A stretch of 64,000 nucleotides of DNA from Pseudomonadota bacterium (lineage in GTDB: Bacteria > Pseudomonadota > Gammaproteobacteria > Burkholderiales > Sulfuricellaceae): contig JAJYXP010000044.1 in NCBI GenBank assembly GCA_021801705.1, positions 1-64,000 of the forward strand, in the 5' to 3' direction. The notes beneath the pieces are model-generated. The model was given only the letters and a program-made list of their open reading frames with translations. It searched no databases and was not told the DNA's origin. Position 1 is the stretch's first letter; each line of letters opens with the position of its first letter. Position numbers and translations under genes: made by a program. This document shows, piece by piece, positions 42,870-55,061 of this stretch.

Positions 42870-43266
42870 ACGCGACCAAAGCGAAGGAGCGCGACCGCCG
42901 CAACATTTATATGCCGGCGCTGGTGCGGGTGGCCAGGCTGCCGGACACAAAGAACGGCACTGTGCGCAACGTGCCGCCATCCCCTGCTGCAGTGGAAGCT
43001 ATCAAGGGCTTGCCCAGAGCCATCAGTGGACCGGTGTTCGCTACAACTGCCAGTGCGGTCAAACAATCGTGGGTGAGGGCGGTTGCCAGGGCGCGGCGGA
43101 ATTACCCGGCAGACTGCAAGACCACCGGACGGGAGCTGATTGCTGGATTTCTCTATAATCTGACGTTCCACGATCTGCGCCACGAAGGCACCAGCCGCCT
43201 GGCCGAATTTTTCCCCATGCACAAGCTCGTGAAAATAACGGGGCACAAGGATTCGCGAATGTCGGC
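42870..43266 (+). pseudogene. Tyrosine integrase remnant
   Basis: The frame reads AKERDRRNIYM, then LPDTKNGTVRNVPPSPAAVE and DLRHEGTSRLAEFFPMHKLV, the H-X-X-R region of a tyrosine recombinase, up to ITGHKDSRMS. The nucleophile Tyr region is replaced by MITE family D at 43267. The N-terminal domain is not readable upstream (42666-42870 shows only scraps). Inactive. Confidence 0.8.
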
Positions 43267-43562
43267 TAGTGTCGCGTCATGCATAATCCTAAAAACCGCC
43301 ATTAGCCACGGATGGACACGGATTTACACAGATAAAACAATGCGTTGTGGAAAATTTGCCATTCACCTGAAAGGTGCGCAGGACGAGAAAGGCAACTCAT
43401 CTCATTGATAATCTGTGTAAATCCGTGTCCATCCGTGGCTGAACTGCTTTTTATAGCATAATTTGTCGTATGTGTATCACCAATAAAAATCAGTTTTATC
43501 TATATATTTTATATGGTTACTGAAATCATCTTATTCGTCGTTTTATACGTGACACGACACTA
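43267..43562. repeat. MITE family D, 296 bp, TAGTGTCGCGTCA termini, with a nested repeat
   Basis: Termini are TAGTGTCGCGTCATGCATAA (43267-43286) and TTATACGTGACACGACACTA (43543-43562). Nested inside is a second palindrome at 43305-43440: GCCACGGATGGACACGGATT and its mirror AATCCGTGTCCATCCGTGGC. AT-rich remainder, no gene. Confidence 0.85.
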
Positions 43563-43744: not shown

Positions 43745-43916
43745 TCAAATGAATAGCATGATTATCTTCTTTCCTGCGGAAGGGAGAAGCAATTGAGGAG
43801 TGGGGAACAATTCGGGAACGGATAAACTGGAATATAAGCAGAATAAACGGAAACAATACGGGAACAGTGGGAACGCTAAAACGGCATTTTTGCTTAAATT
43901 AAGAGGCTGCTGCAGA

Positions 43917-43947
43917 AATAAAAAAACCGCCTGAGTGGCGGTTTTAT
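43917..43947 (-). terminator. Rho-independent terminator of the tRNA operon
   Basis: On the minus strand an AACCGCC / GGCGGTT stem is followed by a T-run, 15 bases beyond tRNA-His. The 170 bases to its left hold nothing recognisable. Confidence 0.88.
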
Positions 43948-43959
43948 TTGATGAATTAG

Positions 43960-44036
43960 TGGGGTGGCTGATGGGGCTCGAACCCACGACAACCGGAATC
44001 ACAATCCGGGACTCTACCAACTGAGCTACAGCCACC
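43960..44036 (-). tRNA. tRNA-His (anticodon GTG)
   Basis: The 77-nt gene has encoded CCA and the extra 5' G-1 opposite C73 typical of tRNA-His. The anticodon stem-loop reads CCGGATTGTGATTCCGG, the T arm GTGGGTTCGAGCCCCAT. Last of three clustered tRNA genes. Confidence 0.95.
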
Positions 44037-44082
44037 ATTAAAACTTTGCATTTCCTGCCAGTGCGTGTTGCCAAGGCTTTTA

Positions 44083-44159
44083 TGGCCTGCCCGACAGGAA
44101 TCGAACCTGTAACCCCCAGCTTAGAAGGCTGGTGCTCTATCCGGTTGAGCTACGGGCAG
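44083..44159 (-). tRNA. tRNA-Arg (anticodon TCT)
   Basis: 77 nt with encoded CCA. Acceptor CTGCCCG / CGGGCAG; anticodon stem-loop CCAGCCTTCTAAGCTGG; T arm ACAGGTTCGATTCCTGT. Confidence 0.94.
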
Positions 44160-44175
44160 ATTGTCGGACAAATCC

Positions 44176-44252
44176 TGGTCGGGGTGGAGAGATTCGAACT
44201 CCCGACATCCTGGTCCCAAACCAGGCGCGCTACCAGGCTACGCTACACCCCG
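44176..44252 (-). tRNA. tRNA-Pro (anticodon TGG)
   Basis: 77 nt with encoded CCA. Acceptor CGGGGTG / CACCCCG; anticodon stem-loop CCTGGTTTGGGACCAGG; T arm GGGAGTTCGAATCTCTC. First of the Pro-Arg-His cluster. Confidence 0.95.
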
Positions 44253-44323
44253 AAGAGCTGCGAATTCTACTGTGCCCGGACAAAAAGGTCAATTGCAATT
44301 CCATTCCCGGCTTTTATTGTTGG

Positions 44324-46224
<1,901 letters not shown>

Positions 46225-46240
46225 GGCAAGTCTCCTTTAA

Positions 46241-46597
46241 TTAATAGAACAGCGGGGCGATATAGGGGAAAGCGACGGCCAGGCCGATCAGGATGGCGAC
46301 GATCCAGAACAGTATCCTGTAAACCCGGTTGGTCTGCGGCAGGGCGCACAGGGAGCCTGGCGTGCAGGCCTCGGCCGCCGGGGCGCGGTAGATCTTTTTC
46401 CAGGCCAGGAACAGGAAGATGACCGCCGCGCCGAGGAAATAGGGGCGGAACGGCTCCAGCATGGAAAGATTGGCGACCCAGGCCCCGCCGATGCCGAGCA
46501 TCACCAGCACCAGCGGCCCGATGCAGCACAGTGAAGCAGCGATGGCGGCGAGCACGCCACCCACCAGCGGCCAGCGGCCGACTTTTTCCCGGGACAT
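46241..46597 (-). CDS. merT: Mercury transporter MerT
   Basis: The 118-residue protein has three transmembrane helices, the Cys pair AASLCCIGPLVL in the first and a cytoplasmic pair in EACTPGSLCALP. Start 46597 (MSREKVGRWPLVGG) lies just downstream of the MerR operator; longer frames cross the promoter. Confidence 0.96.
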   Translation of the reverse strand: MSREKVGRWPLVGGVLAAIAASLCCIGPLVLVMLGIGGAWVANLSMLEPFRPYFLGAAVIFLFLAWKKIYRAPAAEACTPGSLCALPQTNRVYRILFWIVAILIGLAVAFPYIAPLFY

Positions 46598-46629
46598 GAT
46601 GGTTCTCCTTGGAATGTGATCTTGCGCAA

Positions 46630-46660
46630 GCATAACCTCCGTACTAGAGTACGGAGTCAA
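46630..46660 (-). promoter_or_regulatory. mer operator-promoter
   Basis: On the minus strand TTGACT (-35) and TTATGC (-10) are 19 bases apart, the overlong spacer of MerR-type promoters. The spacer holds the dyad CTCCGTAC / GTACGGAG. It drives merTPA leftward; merR lies divergently. Confidence 0.95.
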
Positions 46661-46681
46661 GAGGTTTTTTGAAGGGGAGTC

Positions 46682-47086
46682 ATGATGCAAGACCAGGATC
46701 TGACGATAGGAATAGTAGCCAAGCAGGCCGGCGTCAATGTGGAAACCATCCGCTTCTACCATCGGCGAGGGCTCTTGCCGGTGCCGCAAAAACCGCTCGG
46801 CGGCGTGCGCCGCTACAACCAGGGGGATGTCGCCCGGGTGCGCTTCATCAAGTCAGCCCAGCGTCTCGGTTTCACCCTGGATGAAATCGGCCAGTTGCTG
46901 AAGCTGGACGACGGAACGCATTGCGCCGAGGCCCGTGAAATTGCCGAGCACAAGCTCGCGGACGTGCGTGCCAGGCTGGAAGATCTGCGGCGCATCGAGG
47001 CTGCCCTGAAGAGATTGGTGGAGGCGTGCCAGGCACGGAAAAGCAAGGTTTCCTGCCCGCTGATCGCCTCTTTGCGTATCTGCTGA
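46682..47086 (+). CDS. merR: Mercury-responsive regulator MerR
   Basis: The 134-residue protein has an N-terminal winged helix ([20 protein letters not shown]) and the three Hg-binding cysteines in [18 protein letters not shown] and VSCPLIA. It binds the 19-bp-spacer promoter at 46630-46660 and activates merTPA on Hg(II). Divergent from merT. Confidence 0.97.
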
Positions 47087-47188
47087 TGCCCTCGACAACA
47101 TTCCTCGCGCGCCTGCCAACTTTGACACGCGCGGTTTTATAAAGCCGGTGGCGGAAAAAGACGCCCTACGTGTCTGCGCGGGCTTGGA

Positions 47189-47611
47189 TTAAGTATTACC
47201 ACGCGGCTTTTGATCCATATTCTCTATGATCGGGCAGCTGTCCTTGGCGCCCCGGCACAGGTTGAGCAGCAATTGCAGTTCGTTTCGCAGCAACGTGAGT
47301 TCCTTGAGGCGCGCATCGACTTCTTCCAGCTTGGCGGCGGTGAGCGTGCGCACATGCTCGCGGGCGCGTTGCGGATTTTCGCGCATGGTGAGCAGCATTG
47401 AGATTTCAGCCAGGCTGAACCCCATTTTCTGTGCCCGTTGGATGAATCGCAGGCGGGAGATGTCGCGCTCGCCGTAGGCGCGGATTCCCGATTCGTCCCG
47501 CCCCACGCGAGGCAATAGCCCGATTTTTTCATAGTAGCGCAGCGTGTCGACGCTCAGGCCCAGCGTCCGGGCGATGTCGCCGATACGCAGCCTGCTGTCA
47601 TTCTTGTCCAT
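47189..47611 (-). CDS. MerR-family metal-responsive regulator
   Basis: The 140-residue protein has an HTH (LRIGDIARTLGLSVDTLRYY), dimer helix and a C-terminal Cys pair in NLCRGAKDSCPII. It resembles ZntR/CueR/PbrR-type sensors and differs from the MerR above. It is the last gene of a four-gene minus-strand operon whose promoter (49723-49753) has the MerR-type 19-base spacer. Autoregulation is therefore likely. The inducer is unknown. Confidence 0.88.
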   Translation of the reverse strand: MDKNDSRLRIGDIARTLGLSVDTLRYYEKIGLLPRVGRDESGIRAYGERDISRLRFIQRAQKMGFSLAEISMLLTMRENPQRAREHVRTLTAAKLEEVDARLKELTLLRNELQLLLNLCRGAKDSCPIIENMDQKPRGNT

Positions 47612-47634
47612 CTTGTCCCGTCACCGATCCAGTT

Positions 47635-48939
47635 TTAATACTGGATGATAAAGAAGTATTCATTAAGCAGGTACAGCCCCGTCAAAATCAACGTAATCCC
47701 GGCGGCCACCTCGAACGCCTTCTGATGGCGGGACAGCATCTTCAGCGATTCGAGCCAGCCCATGCCCCAGGCGCCCAGCGCGATTGGGATCGAGCGCCCC
47801 AGCGCGAAGGCGAGCAGCAGGGCGAAGCCGAACGGGACCGAGCCGATAGCCGCGGCGGCGGCGAGGGTCACCATCAGCGCCGGCGTGCAGAACGGGCAGA
47901 CGGCCACCGAAAAAGGGATGCCCAGGAGGAAGGCGCCCCAGACGCCCGCGACCTTGCGGCCGCGCAGGCTGATCCAAGGCAGCCGGAGATTCAGCCAGCC
48001 TGGCCAGAGCAAGCCCAGCACGATGAGCAGCGGCCCAAGGAAGAGCCCCCATTGCCGCCCCATGATGGTCTTGACCCATTCGCCGCCCAAGGCTGCCGCG
48101 ACTCCCAGCGCCACGTGGGTGAAAATCATGCCGGCGATGAAAGCGCTACCCAGTGCGAGCGCACGTTTCTCTTCGTGGGCCTTCGTCACGTAGGCGAGCA
48201 CTACCGGGATGGAGGCGAACGCAACCGGGTTGAAGCTGAACACGAAGCCGGTCAGGAACGCGAGAGCGATGCCGAGGAGGCTGGCCTTTTGCAAGGCCGC
48301 ACTGAGGGCGTCGACACCGAGGTCGAAGGCGGGAATCAAGAGATACAGGGCGAACCCGTAAAGCAACGCTGCAGTCAGGAACGGGCTGCCCTTGGCTGCG
48401 CGATTGAGGAGTTCCCGACCCTCCGCGTGTATGCCCTTGAGCGCCGCGAACGCCATGGGCAGGGTGAAGAACCCGGCGAACAGCAGTCCCGCAGCCGCAG
48501 CGAAACGAAGGGAGTCCACGGTCACGGCAAGTCCCACCACCACCGCGAAAAGGGGGATCGTGCAGGCCGGCAGTGTCAGCCCGATCTGAATGGCTTGGGG
48601 AAGCCGTCCGCCCCCCGGCAGCAGCCGGTGGAACGCGAGATGCGGCACGGGGATGTAGGTGAAGCGGGAGGCGAGGTACAGCGTGGCCATCACGGACAGG
48701 ATCAGGCTGGGTACGTAAGGTCTCCAGGCGGGCGGCTCCGTGGCCCATACCAGCAGCGTCAGCAGCCCAACTGCCAGGATGCTGCGGGCGATCCATACAG
48801 CGAGCAGGCTACGGCAGCAACCGGTCCGTCCCTGGCCGTGGGCGCGCACGGTGAACAGGGTATGGGTTGCGATGGTGCACGGCTCGAAAAAGGCGAGCGC
48901 ACCGAGCAGGGCCGAGGCCGCGAGCAGCAGCGCGTTCAT
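47635..48939 (-). CDS. Duplicated CcdA/DsbD-type membrane thiol transporter
   Basis: The 434-residue protein has about 11-12 transmembrane helices in two CcdA-like halves. Half one carries FEPCTIATHTLF and LPACTIPLF; half two has FNPVAFASIPVV, where the Cys is lost, and AVCPFCTPALMV. CcdA proteins move electrons from cytoplasmic thioredoxin to periplasmic thiols. The fusion and the changed Cys set are unusual. It overlaps the thioredoxin gene upstream by 4 bases, so the two are translated together. Confidence 0.8.
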   Translation of the reverse strand: MNALLLAASALLGALAFFEPCTIATHTLFTVRAHGQGRTGCCRSLLAVWIARSILAVGLLTLLVWATEPPAWRPYVPSLILSVMATLYLASRFTYIPVPHLAFHRLLPGGGRLPQAIQIGLTLPACTIPLFAVVVGLAVTVDSLRFAAAAGLLFAGFFTLPMAFAALKGIHAEGRELLNRAAKGSPFLTAALLYGFALYLLIPAFDLGVDALSAALQKASLLGIALAFLTGFVFSFNPVAFASIPVVLAYVTKAHEEKRALALGSAFIAGMIFTHVALGVAAALGGEWVKTIMGRQWGLFLGPLLIVLGLLWPGWLNLRLPWISLRGRKVAGVWGAFLLGIPFSVAVCPFCTPALMVTLAAAAAIGSVPFGFALLLAFALGRSIPIALGAWGMGWLESLKMLSRHQKAFEVAAGITLILTGLYLLNEYFFIIQY

Positions 48940-49226
48940 GTCCGTGCCGCCTGGCTGCTTTCAGGCAGCCGCTTCTCCAGAGCCTCGCGCAATTTCCCGG
49001 CAGAAGGCAGGCCGGAAAAGACCAGCTCGCCGCCGATGACGATGGCCGGGGTGGAGAGCACGCCGAGCGTGACCGCGTAATCCAGTTCCTCCAGCACATT
49101 CACCTCGCGCCATTCTATGCCGCCGATGTCTTGGGCGAGCTTGCGCAGTACCTCCTTGGCGTGGCCGCATTTGCCGCAGCCGGGCGAGGAAAATACTTCT
49201 ACTTTAAGTAGTTGCATCTCCTTCAT
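48936..49226 (-). CDS. Thioredoxin-fold protein with CGKC motif
   Basis: The 96-residue protein has VEVFSSPGCGKCGHAKEVLR near the N terminus and STPAIVIGGELVFSG (the cis-Pro loop). It has no signal peptide, so it is probably a cytoplasmic electron donor for the CcdA-like partner. Overlaps both neighbours. Confidence 0.88.
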   Translation of the reverse strand: MKEMQLLKVEVFSSPGCGKCGHAKEVLRKLAQDIGGIEWREVNVLEELDYAVTLGVLSTPAIVIGGELVFSGLPSAGKLREALEKRLPESSQAART

Positions 49227-49654
49227 CCCTTCATCTTCTCGATGAACGCGGCGGGCGGCAGCCCCCCGAAAAACCGCTTTAACGGCCTGCCGTTCCGATC
49301 CAGCACGATCACGGTTGGTGTTGCGAAAATCCCCAGTTTCCCCGCGAACCCACTCTCGGTTGTTTTCTCGCCGTTAGGCCCCACGATGGGCAGCGAGCCG
49401 CGCAGGTCGAGGCGAACCAGCTCGTAGTGCCCCAGCAGGAAGGACTGCACCGCTTTATCCCGCAGGGTCTTTTCTTCGAGCGCGCGACAACCGGGGCAGC
49501 CTTCCATGCTGAAAACCAGCACAAGAACCTTGCCTGACCGGTCGGCATCTGCCAGATCGGCGTGCAGATCCCCGAAAGAGTCCTTGAACACCGTGTCGGC
49601 GCTGACAAGAGAAGCCGCCAATAGCAGCAGTAACCCAAACAATGTCTTTCCCAT
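49223..49654 (-). CDS. Exported thioredoxin-like protein
   Basis: The 143-residue protein has a signal peptide (MGKTLFGLLLLLAASLVSAD) and the SoxW/thioredoxin-7-type motif SMEGCPGCRALEEKTL with FATPTVIVLD. It should act in the periplasm and receive electrons through the CcdA-like protein. Start 49654 is set by the signal peptide; a longer open frame would cross the MerR-type promoter. First gene of the operon. Confidence 0.88.
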   Translation of the reverse strand: MGKTLFGLLLLLAASLVSADTVFKDSFGDLHADLADADRSGKVLVLVFSMEGCPGCRALEEKTLRDKAVQSFLLGHYELVRLDLRGSLPIVGPNGEKTTESGFAGKLGIFATPTVIVLDRNGRPLKRFFGGLPPAAFIEKMKG

Positions 49655-49722
49655 TTCAAGTCTCCCATTCAGATGTGAAGTTTTCGAAAATAACCCTGCG
49701 GCAGGGGCAACATTTGGTTCAC

Positions 49723-49753
49723 ATCCTAAAGCCTGGAGTTGACTCCAAGTCAA
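49723..49753 (-). promoter_or_regulatory. MerR-type promoter of the thioredoxin/CcdA operon
   Basis: On the minus strand TTGACT (-35) and TAGGAT (-10) are separated by 19 bases containing the dyad TGGAGTCAACTCCA. This differs from the mer operator, so the second MerR-family protein is the likely ligand-specific activator. Confidence 0.82.
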
Positions 49754-49880
49754 GGTGTTTTTACCCATCATGTAAAAACAGGCGTCCGGAATATGATCGC
49801 GACTCTCTGACAGCCATCTCCACCACCCTCGATGTGCCACGCACCTTGTAAATATCCGATATGGAGAATATGATTAAAAA

Positions 49881-50228
49881 ATGCTTCAGGACCAGAATTT
49901 TTTCGATACCCTCTCCGACGAAACCCGGCGCCGCTTGCTGGCGCTCCTTCTCAAGCAGGGAGAATTGTGCGTGTGCGAGTTGCAGTATGCCGTAGATATG
50001 CCGCAGCCGAAGATTTCCCGCCATTTGGCCGTCATGCGCGAGGCGGAAGTGCTGGCGGTGCGGCGGGAAGGAACCTGGATCTATTACCGCCTTCATTCCG
50101 GGCTTCCATTGTGGGCTTACCGGATCGTCGAGGCCATGACGCAAAGCATAAGCCAGTCTCAGATGTTTGACCAGGATGCCGTCCGCCTGGAGGAAATGGC
50201 CAACCGTCCGGCACGCTGCTCCGCCTAA
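49881..50228 (+). CDS. arsR: Arsenic-responsive repressor ArsR
   Basis: The 115-residue winged-helix protein (FDTLSDETRRRLLALLLKQG) has the metalloid-binding ELCVCEL motif in the DNA-recognition region and a C-terminal Cys. It should repress the ars genes and release on As(III). First gene of the ars cluster. Confidence 0.94.
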   Translation: MLQDQNFFDTLSDETRRRLLALLLKQGELCVCELQYAVDMPQPKISRHLAVMREAEVLAVRREGTWIYYRLHSGLPLWAYRIVEAMTQSISQSQMFDQDAVRLEEMANRPARCSA

Positions 50229-53377: not shown

Positions 53378-53413
53378 GGCTGATTTTTGGATATTTATAT
53401 CAGGAGCTGGAAA

Positions 53414-53683
53414 ATGAAGAGCATCAAGGTATTGGGCACAGGCTGTGCAAACTGCAATGCGACCATGAAATTGATCGAGGAAACCGCCAAAGCCAAGGGT
53501 GTTTCAATTCAACTGGAAAAGGTGGAAGACATGGCTGCCATTCTTGGCTACGGCGTGATGTCCACCCCCGGCGTGGTGGTCGACGGCAAGGTGGTGCATG
53601 CCGGCGGCGTGCCGGGCAAGAGCGCGGTGGAAGGCTGGCTGGGCAGCGCCGAATCCTGCTGCGGCTGTTGCGGCAAGGAGTGA
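53414..53683 (+). CDS. Redox-active disulfide (thioredoxin-like) protein
   Basis: The 89-residue protein starts MKSIKVLGTGCANCNATMKL (C-X2-C) and has GVMSTPGVVVDGKVVHAGGV. It ends with ESCCGCCGKE, a second Cys cluster. Such proteins accompany SO_0444-type permeases and ArsC. It may reduce ArsC or pass arsenite. Confidence 0.9.
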   Translation: MKSIKVLGTGCANCNATMKLIEETAKAKGVSIQLEKVEDMAAILGYGVMSTPGVVVDGKVVHAGGVPGKSAVEGWLGSAESCCGCCGKE

Positions 53684-54137: not shown

Positions 54138-55061
54138 ATGAAGACTCTGTTTAAAGCCGTGCCGGTCCTGGCGGCATTGCTCTATCTCAGCACCGCCCAT
54201 GCTCTCACCCTCACGCCGGTCAAGGTGGCGCCCGATGTCTACGCCTTCATCGGCGAAACCGGCGGCCGCACCTATGCAAATTACGGCATGAACGCCAATA
54301 CCGGCTTCATTGTCACCGATGAAGGCGTGGTGGTGGTGGACAGCGGCGCCGGTTATCTTGCCGCCAGGGCCATGCACCTTGCCATCAAGCGGGTGACCGG
54401 GAAGCCGGTGAAATATGTGGTGAACACCGGCGGCCAGGACCACCGCTGGCTCGGCAACGGCTATTTCAGGGAGCAGGGCGCGGAAATCATCGCCGCAAGG
54501 CCGGCGCGCGCCGACATGGAGCGGCGGTCCGGGGCGCAGATCGAGGCGCTGCGGGCCGATCTGAAAGACCGGCTGGAAGGCACCAGGCCGGTCTATCCAA
54601 ATCGCTTGTTCGATCAGCGCGAAACCCTGCGCCTCGGCGGCACCGAAATCCAGTTGCTGTTTTTCTCCGGGGGGCACACGCCGGGCGACAGCGTGGTGTG
54701 GCTGCCGCAAAAGAAGGTGTTGTTCTCCGGCGACCTGGTCTATGCCGATCGTCTGCTGGGGGTGCTGCCGTTCAGCAACAGCCGCAACTGGCTGGCCTCG
54801 TTCGAGGCGATGGAAAAGCTCAAGCCCGGGAAGATCGTGCCCGGCCATGGCCTGGTGTGCGATCTCGACCAGGCGCGGCGCGAAACCCGCGATTACCTGC
54901 GCCTGCTGCGCAGCCACATGAAGAAGTCGTTCGACGGCGGGGTTGATTTGCAGACTGCGATAAACCGTCTCGACCAGAAGAATTTCGCCCGCCTGCGGAA
55001 TTACGAAACATTGAAAGGCGCCAATGCCAGCCAGGTTTACCTGGAGATCGAAGCGGAATAG
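54138..55061 (+). CDS. Exported metallo-beta-lactamase-fold hydrolase
   Basis: The 307-residue protein has a signal peptide (MKTLFKAVPVLAALLYLSTA) and an MBL fold (VVVVDSGAGYLA, FFSGGHTPGDSVVWLPQKKV, FSGDLVYADRLLG, VPGHGL). The canonical H-X-H-X-D-H site reads VVNTGGQDHRWLGN, so the first two His ligands are absent while later ligands (GHTPGD, SGD, GHG) remain. It resembles zinc metallohydrolases linked to quinoprotein relay systems. The substrate is unknown. Confidence 0.82.
   Translation: MKTLFKAVPVLAALLYLSTAHALTLTPVKVAPDVYAFIGETGGRTYANYGMNANTGFIVTDEGVVVVDSGAGYLAARAMHLAIKRVTGKPVKYVVNTGGQDHRWLGNGYFREQGAEIIAARPARADMERRSGAQIEALRADLKDRLEGTRPVYPNRLFDQRETLRLGGTEIQLLFFSGGHTPGDSVVWLPQKKVLFSGDLVYADRLLGVLPFSNSRNWLASFEAMEKLKPGKIVPGHGLVCDLDQARRETRDYLRLLRSHMKKSFDGGVDLQTAINRLDQKNFARLRNYETLKGANASQVYLEIEAE

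Follow-up and report, generated by a model that had tools for sequence, protein, structure and literature searches.

What might two thioredoxins, a CcdA-type membrane protein and a MerR-family regulator be doing between a mercury operon and a group of arsenic genes? We addressed this question in a stretch of 64,000 nucleotides (positions 1 to 64,000 of contig JAJYXP010000044.1, assembly GCA_021801705.1; hereafter the window) from a bacterium of the Sulfuricellaceae. The first-pass annotation had read four minus-strand genes in the window, here named trxA, trxB, ccdA2 and merRx, as a metal-induced route for electrons from the cytoplasm to the periplasm. The features concerned are the following.

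44296–49846: block of 5.55 kb containing mer and the redox module; the sister genomes G007 and G001 lack it at the corresponding site, from the tRNA cluster to arsR
44324–46597, minus strand: merT-merP-merA, the neighbouring mercury operon, in a common inserted block with the module
46682–47086, plus strand: merR of the true mer operon (TIGR02051, 171 bits, above the cut-off), tail-to-tail with merRx and divergent from merT-merP-merA
47189–47611, minus strand: merRx, MerR family, CueR-like, with C119-X6-C126 and with Arg84 at the position of CueR Ser77
47635–48939, minus strand: ccdA2, encoding a double-length CcdA
47635–48309, minus strand: C-half of ccdA2, a CcdA/DsbD_TM domain (PF02683, E 1.2e-12) with FSFNPV (TM1 without cysteine) and CPFC (C348, C351)
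48310–48939, minus strand: N-half of ccdA2, a divergent CcdA domain with C21 (FFEPC) and C126 (LPACT)
48936–49226, minus strand: trxB, a core gene for a cytoplasmic-type thioredoxin of 96 residues with CGKC (PF13192, E 6.5e-13)
49223–49654, minus strand: trxA, in the variable first slot of the operon, for an exported thioredoxin-like protein of 143 residues with CPGC (PF13098, E 2.2e-14)
49723–49753, minus strand: MerR-type promoter/operator, composed of TTGACT, a 19-bp spacer with a dyad, and TAGGAT

The four genes lie at the positions first assigned to them and are tightly spaced, with 4-bp overlaps (ATGA) at the TrxA/TrxB and TrxB/CcdA2 junctions and a gap of 23 bp from CcdA2 to MerRx. The arsR gene starts at 49881 on the plus strand, divergently from the module. 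TrxA belongs to the Pfam family Thioredoxin_2 and has a signal-peptide-like N-terminus (MGKTLFGLLLLLAASLVSA), TrxB belongs to Thioredoxin_3 and has no signal peptide, and MerRx consists of MerR and MerR-DNA-bind domains. Because TrxB relatives begin with MxIKVEVFSSPGC, the real start of TrxB may be the second ATG, at 49217, which fits better than 49226. A second small Thioredoxin_3 protein is encoded in the ars region (53387–53683), after an ArsP-type permease.

The promoter predicted by the first-pass annotation, of MerR type with a 19-base spacer and its own dyad, is present: TTGACT spans 49753–49748 and TAGGAT spans 49728–49723, and the 19 bases in between contain the dyad CTTGGAGTCAACTCCAGG. 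The pattern TTGACNTGGAGNNNNCTCCANNNNNTA matches the 2.84-Mb genome at one site only, also when up to 2 mismatches are permitted, and had 0 matches in 100 shuffles of the window. In 28 of the 39 TrxB-bearing loci, the pattern TTGACNNGGAG..CTCCA..TA is found upstream in the correct orientation and with the same 19-bp spacing. All 28 distinct sites have a –10 element that ends in T (TANNNT), which the search pattern did not demand. Across all loci (0.71 Mb of strand), 29 of 30 operator occurrences are upstream of the module. The thirtieth, in Thiobacillus locus L029, lies upstream of a periplasmic-type DsrE gene (L029:2400–2822, minus strand) that is divergent from trxB. On account of this extra copy, the DsrE gene looks like a second regulon member, suggesting a two-promoter regulon in this Thiobacillus. 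A MerR helix-turn-helix protein and a promoter with a dyad in a spacer of 19–20 bp define the MerR family in the wide sense, and both are found here; the module is very likely MerR-regulated. Comparative evidence points to MerRx as the probable binder of 49723–49753.

A scan of genome contigs detected 42 loci, mainly in metagenome-assembled genomes of beta- and gammaproteobacteria. TrxB is encoded directly 5' of CcdA2 in nearly all loci with a long enough contig, and MerRx 3' of CcdA2 in most, with an extra gene in between in some. The conserved unit is therefore trxB-ccdA2-merRx, three genes found in more than 30 beta- and gammaproteobacterial genomes, many of them from sulfur oxidisers; host names include Thiobacillus, Thiogranum, Thiohalobacter, Chromatiales and Thiotrichales. 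The full order trxA-trxB-ccdA2-merRx occurs only in the source genome and near-identical relatives, and among TrxB-CcdA2 loci only those of G000, G009 and L021 have TrxA. We rejected a conserved four-gene unit, since TrxA is confined to the source lineage; TrxA is a local extra outside the conserved system. The proposed four-gene system thus survives as a three-gene core, and the concern that the order might be conserved nowhere falls away because the core order is widespread. Within the genus, the double CcdA is present in 2 of 12 genomes. Of 369 genomes covered by a class-wide search, 28 have the N-half, in about 22 cases as part of a full-length double CcdA. A phylum-wide scan (E 1e-25) added only one genome, and the set is therefore sparse.

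The stretch from the operator to TrxB is variable among the relatives. Many loci encode a MerP-like HMA protein there. Some have a MerT-like membrane protein (Pfam MerT E 8e-4, below the cut-off), a Phenol_MetA_deg protein that resembles outer-membrane channels, or a DsrE protein; periplasmic DsrE proteins are in the operon in L029, L048, L061 and L062. In several loci the operon has no visible periplasmic acceptor. The genes between CcdA2 and MerRx in some relatives encode a zf_CopZ protein or a metallo-beta-lactamase, the latter adjoining ccdA2 ahead of merRx in L028, L030, L032, L035, L038 and L051. The ars region of the window also encodes an exported metallo-beta-lactamase-fold protein (54138–55061), which by eye resembles the ccdA2 neighbour in L028, L032, L035, L038 and L051.

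CcdA2 had been described as a duplicated CcdA. Its double length, its changed cysteine set and its conservation stand, but it is not a tandem copy. We rejected a recent tandem duplication of ccdA, as the profiles of the two halves match each other weakly (E 1.6e-4, probability 50%). Pfam DsbD_TM covers residues 224–424 only, and the C-half matches canonical CcdA/DsbD at E 6e-27. Direct Pfam and PDB-sequence searches gave no confident family match for the N-half. We reached its stand-alone relatives through the intermediate sequence L106 and then through plasmid proteins, mostly annotated as CcdA; tblastn of the N-half itself against plasmids gave no matches. The N-half matches these stand-alone N-type proteins at E 5.1e-16 (hhalign), and they match canonical CcdA/DsbD at E 1.7e-16, so that the C-half belongs to DsbD_TM directly and the N-half through stand-alone intermediates only. 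Because each half matches a different stand-alone type far better than it matches the other half, the best description of CcdA2 is a fusion between two distinct CcdA types. G048 encodes the halves in two separate genes that lie side by side.

The two halves also differ in their cysteines. C21, C126, C348 and C351 are invariant in 34 CcdA2 sequences, among which C41/C42 are not conserved. Judged from these sequences, the N-half retains the canonical CcdA pair, with one cysteine each in TM1 (C21) and TM4 (C126), whereas the C-half alone lacks it: FSFNPV replaces the Pro-Cys of CcdA TM1, and TM4 carries CPFC. The NPV and CPxC motifs are also kept in stand-alone single-length C-type relatives. A working CcdA has the TM1 cysteine that is missing from the C-half, so part of CcdA2 may not carry electrons. 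The C-half resembles the CcdA structure 5vkv both in a PDB sequence search (E 2e-7) and in a Foldseek comparison that is supportive only (probability 0.99, TM-score 0.58 on the target, E 0.26, model pLDDT 74), but a fold search with the N-half model (pLDDT 84) gave no confident structure match.

We then examined the regulator. The nearest solved structure to MerRx is CueR (E 9e-29), the Cu(I)-responsive regulator. MerRx scores 117.3 bits against NCBIfam CueR, under its cut-off of 147.4, and 103.8 bits against Hg(II)-MerR, under its cut-off of 150.85. CueR has a C112-X7-C120 loop and Ser77, and Hg(II)-MerR has three cysteines (C82, C117 and C126). Like CueR, MerRx has two C-terminal cysteines with PIIE after the second, but their spacing, ahead of PII, is C-X6-C in 28 of 28 orthologues. 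The Ser77 position is occupied by Arg in 15 of these, Lys in 11 and Cys in 2, so MerRx has neither the CueR loop nor Ser77. The MerRx of the window has two cysteines and lacks the third one of Hg(II)-MerR. Such a pattern would suit the sensing of a soft monovalent ion or of thiol modification. L031 and L054 are the two loci whose MerRx has Cys where CueR has Ser77; their operons also include a zf_CopZ protein (PF18423, tested in L054), and a changed metal specificity is possible there.

The tie of the module to mer was borne out. By score, 12 of 47 loci have mer genes no more than about 5 kb away. About nine independent mer-adjacent loci are left when near-identical copies and a weak match in L051 are removed; the MerA match in L051 is 33% identical and was not counted as mer. 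Module-type genes adjoin mer on plasmids too. G007 and G001 have the tRNA cluster (His, Arg, Pro; sequence up to window position 44295) and, no more than 190 bp beyond it, a match to the window from 49846 onward (arsR, then arsP). In L118, 1501–1869 corresponds to 43915–44295 of the window and 2055–2429 to 49846–50218, and L119 is arranged likewise. As the ars genes come straight after the tRNA cluster in the two sister genomes, mer and the module behave as one 5.55-kb insertion, and their joint absence there means that they were gained, or lost, together. The module probably does not qualify as a set of accessory genes of the mer operon: it has its own operator and regulator and by gene order stands apart from the merT unit, to which it is physically linked. 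Near the tRNA cluster is a phage-integrase-like ORF (42911–43408; PF00589, E 7.6e-6, just below the cut-off), possibly a remnant of an integrated element. The adjoining sequence of about 50 bases (43409–43465) has about 30 copies in the source genome, also occurs in G002, G003 and G009, and looks like a dispersed short repeat.

We give even credence to the reading that the module is a soft-metal- or thiol-stress-induced transmembrane thiol-reductant relay that travels with the mercury operon. MerRx would sit on its own 19-bp-spaced operator; when its two cysteines bound a thiophilic metal or were otherwise modified, the promoter would be untwisted and the operon, merRx included, switched on. 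Cytoplasmic TrxB would give electrons to CcdA2, whose N-half would shuttle them in the usual CcdA manner through C21 and C126, and the C-half, with CPFC in TM4, would form a second dithiol site. The outer acceptor would be the exported CXXC protein from the first operon slot, namely TrxA here and the MerP-like metal-binding protein in many relatives. Metal-binding thiols of the periplasm could in this way be held in the reduced state that lets them capture metal or pass it on, and oxidised or metal-blocked thiols could be repaired. We infer its inducer, electron direction, acceptor and benefit from the observed genes, operator, conservation, cysteine pattern and mer linkage.

This reading is favoured because the core order and the operator are conserved across beta- and gammaproteobacteria and the operator is unique in the genome; because four CcdA2 cysteines are invariant, with a canonical pair in the N-half, and the C-half is a CcdA; because the first slot often encodes an exported cysteine protein; and because of the mer adjacency, the joint absence with mer, the stand-alone N-types in metal clusters and a Zn/Cd-induced CcdA gene, perhaps of another type, beside CadA in Mesorhizobium. 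Against it are the lack of conservation of C41/C42 and TrxA, the missing TM1 cysteine of the C-half, the loci without an acceptor, and the N-half model without a confident structural match. The DsrE and metallo-beta-lactamase genes of some relatives also point to sulfur, not metal, chemistry.

The loss of the TM1 redox cysteine and the gain of CPxC in the C-half can be read in another way. CcdA2 might be a metal permease in which CPFC in TM4, perhaps with the N-half pair, moves a thiophilic ion and TrxB acts as a dithiol acceptor or chaperone, much as MerT passes Hg(II) to MerA. MerP-like and MerT-like genes share operons with ccdA2, CcdA proteins of actinomycetes have been listed as mercury transporters (PMC12195606), and there is a weak similarity to the ArsG family. 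However, the score of 59.5 bits is far under the ArsG cut-off of 200, and we rejected membership of this permease family (NF040495). Many of the operons already have a MerT-like gene or merT nearby, the canonical redox pair is retained in the N-half, and no metal transporter was a close structural match. On balance, we regard a permease as unlikely.

The frequency of sulfur-oxidiser names among the hosts, the periplasmic DsrE and metallo-beta-lactamase genes within some operons and the lack of the third metal-ligand cysteine in MerRx would agree with a relay on the sulfur side. Like SoxV-SoxW/SoxS, it would support sulfur or persulfide chemistry in the periplasm of sulfur oxidisers, and MerRx would sense reactive sulfur instead of a metal. 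Yet the module is recurrently linked to mer, MerP-like and MerT-like proteins and P-type ATPases, its regulator is nearest to CueR, and we noticed no sox or dsr operon adjoining the loci, which makes this explanation rather improbable. A combined scheme seems more doubtful still: MerRx would represent a distinct MerR class (C-X6-C and a facing Arg/Lys) for a soft metal or reactive sulfur, controlling a CcdA2 whose N-half moves electrons and whose C-half holds the toxic ion at CPFC; one protein would then couple thiol reduction to the transfer of metal across the membrane. That these are ordinary cytochrome c or Dsb housekeeping genes placed by chance between mer and ars is very improbable: cytochrome c maturation or Dsb is the usual role of the CcdA and thioredoxin families, and the genome has a separate DsbD-length homologue, but the module has a private operator and its own MerR, is sparse in the genus and the class, and was inserted together with mer.

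The preferred reading, a thiol-reductant relay, can be compared with known systems. Stand-alone N-type genes are found between MerR and P-type ATPase genes in Leisingera and Thalassobaculum, before a P-type ATPase gene in Marinobacter, and directly 3' of merA in a Roseibium mer operon. Those of Leisingera, Thalassobaculum and Roseibium are homologous to the N-half and have the same cysteine pair, but they are not fused and lack TrxB. On Paraburkholderia, Cupriavidus, Variovorax and Nitrobacter plasmids, C-type genes follow MerR and Trx genes and have mer, P-type ATPase or MerT/MerP-like genes close by. These plasmid sets, known from annotation only, share with the module a C-type CcdA (FNPV, CPxC), a thioredoxin, a MerR regulator and metal-resistance surroundings; in contrast, their CcdA is of single length without an N-half, and a ZntR/MerR-like MerR gene comes first. 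Related chromosomal forms differ from the module in having a CC pair and a 20-bp-type operator. The copper-tolerance redox system ScsABCD is likewise a thiol relay across the membrane that is linked to metal and includes a DsbD-like membrane protein, but it has other partners, no MerRx and no double CcdA. CcdA and thioredoxin genes also occur together in ars operons (PMC2963123), where they are linked to arsA/arsC and neither a MerR nor a fused CcdA is reported. In Mesorhizobium, a CcdA gene, whose type may differ, is beside CadA and induced by Zn/Cd (PMC3668242), and the actinomycete list includes TrxA as well as CcdA (PMC12195606). The first-pass annotation knew of no described system with this exact makeup. 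Full-text searches of open-access papers likewise found none describing the operon, though a description in a subscription journal is possible, but the systems above are close relatives. What is new in the module, compared with the known MerR-Trx-CcdA metal-resistance sets, is the fusion of two CcdA types, unlike other members of CcdA/DsbD_TM (PF02683), together with the MerRx sensor.

Metal resistance is usually described in terms of pumps, reductases and chaperones. To our knowledge, few accounts ask how metal-binding thiols, for example those of MerP, stay reduced in the periplasm, which is an oxidising compartment. A regulated source of electrons that moves together with mer would provide an answer, and makes the question testable. 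Because it joins two CcdA types whose cysteine sets differ, the fusion is also a natural dissection of the role of each CcdA cysteine.
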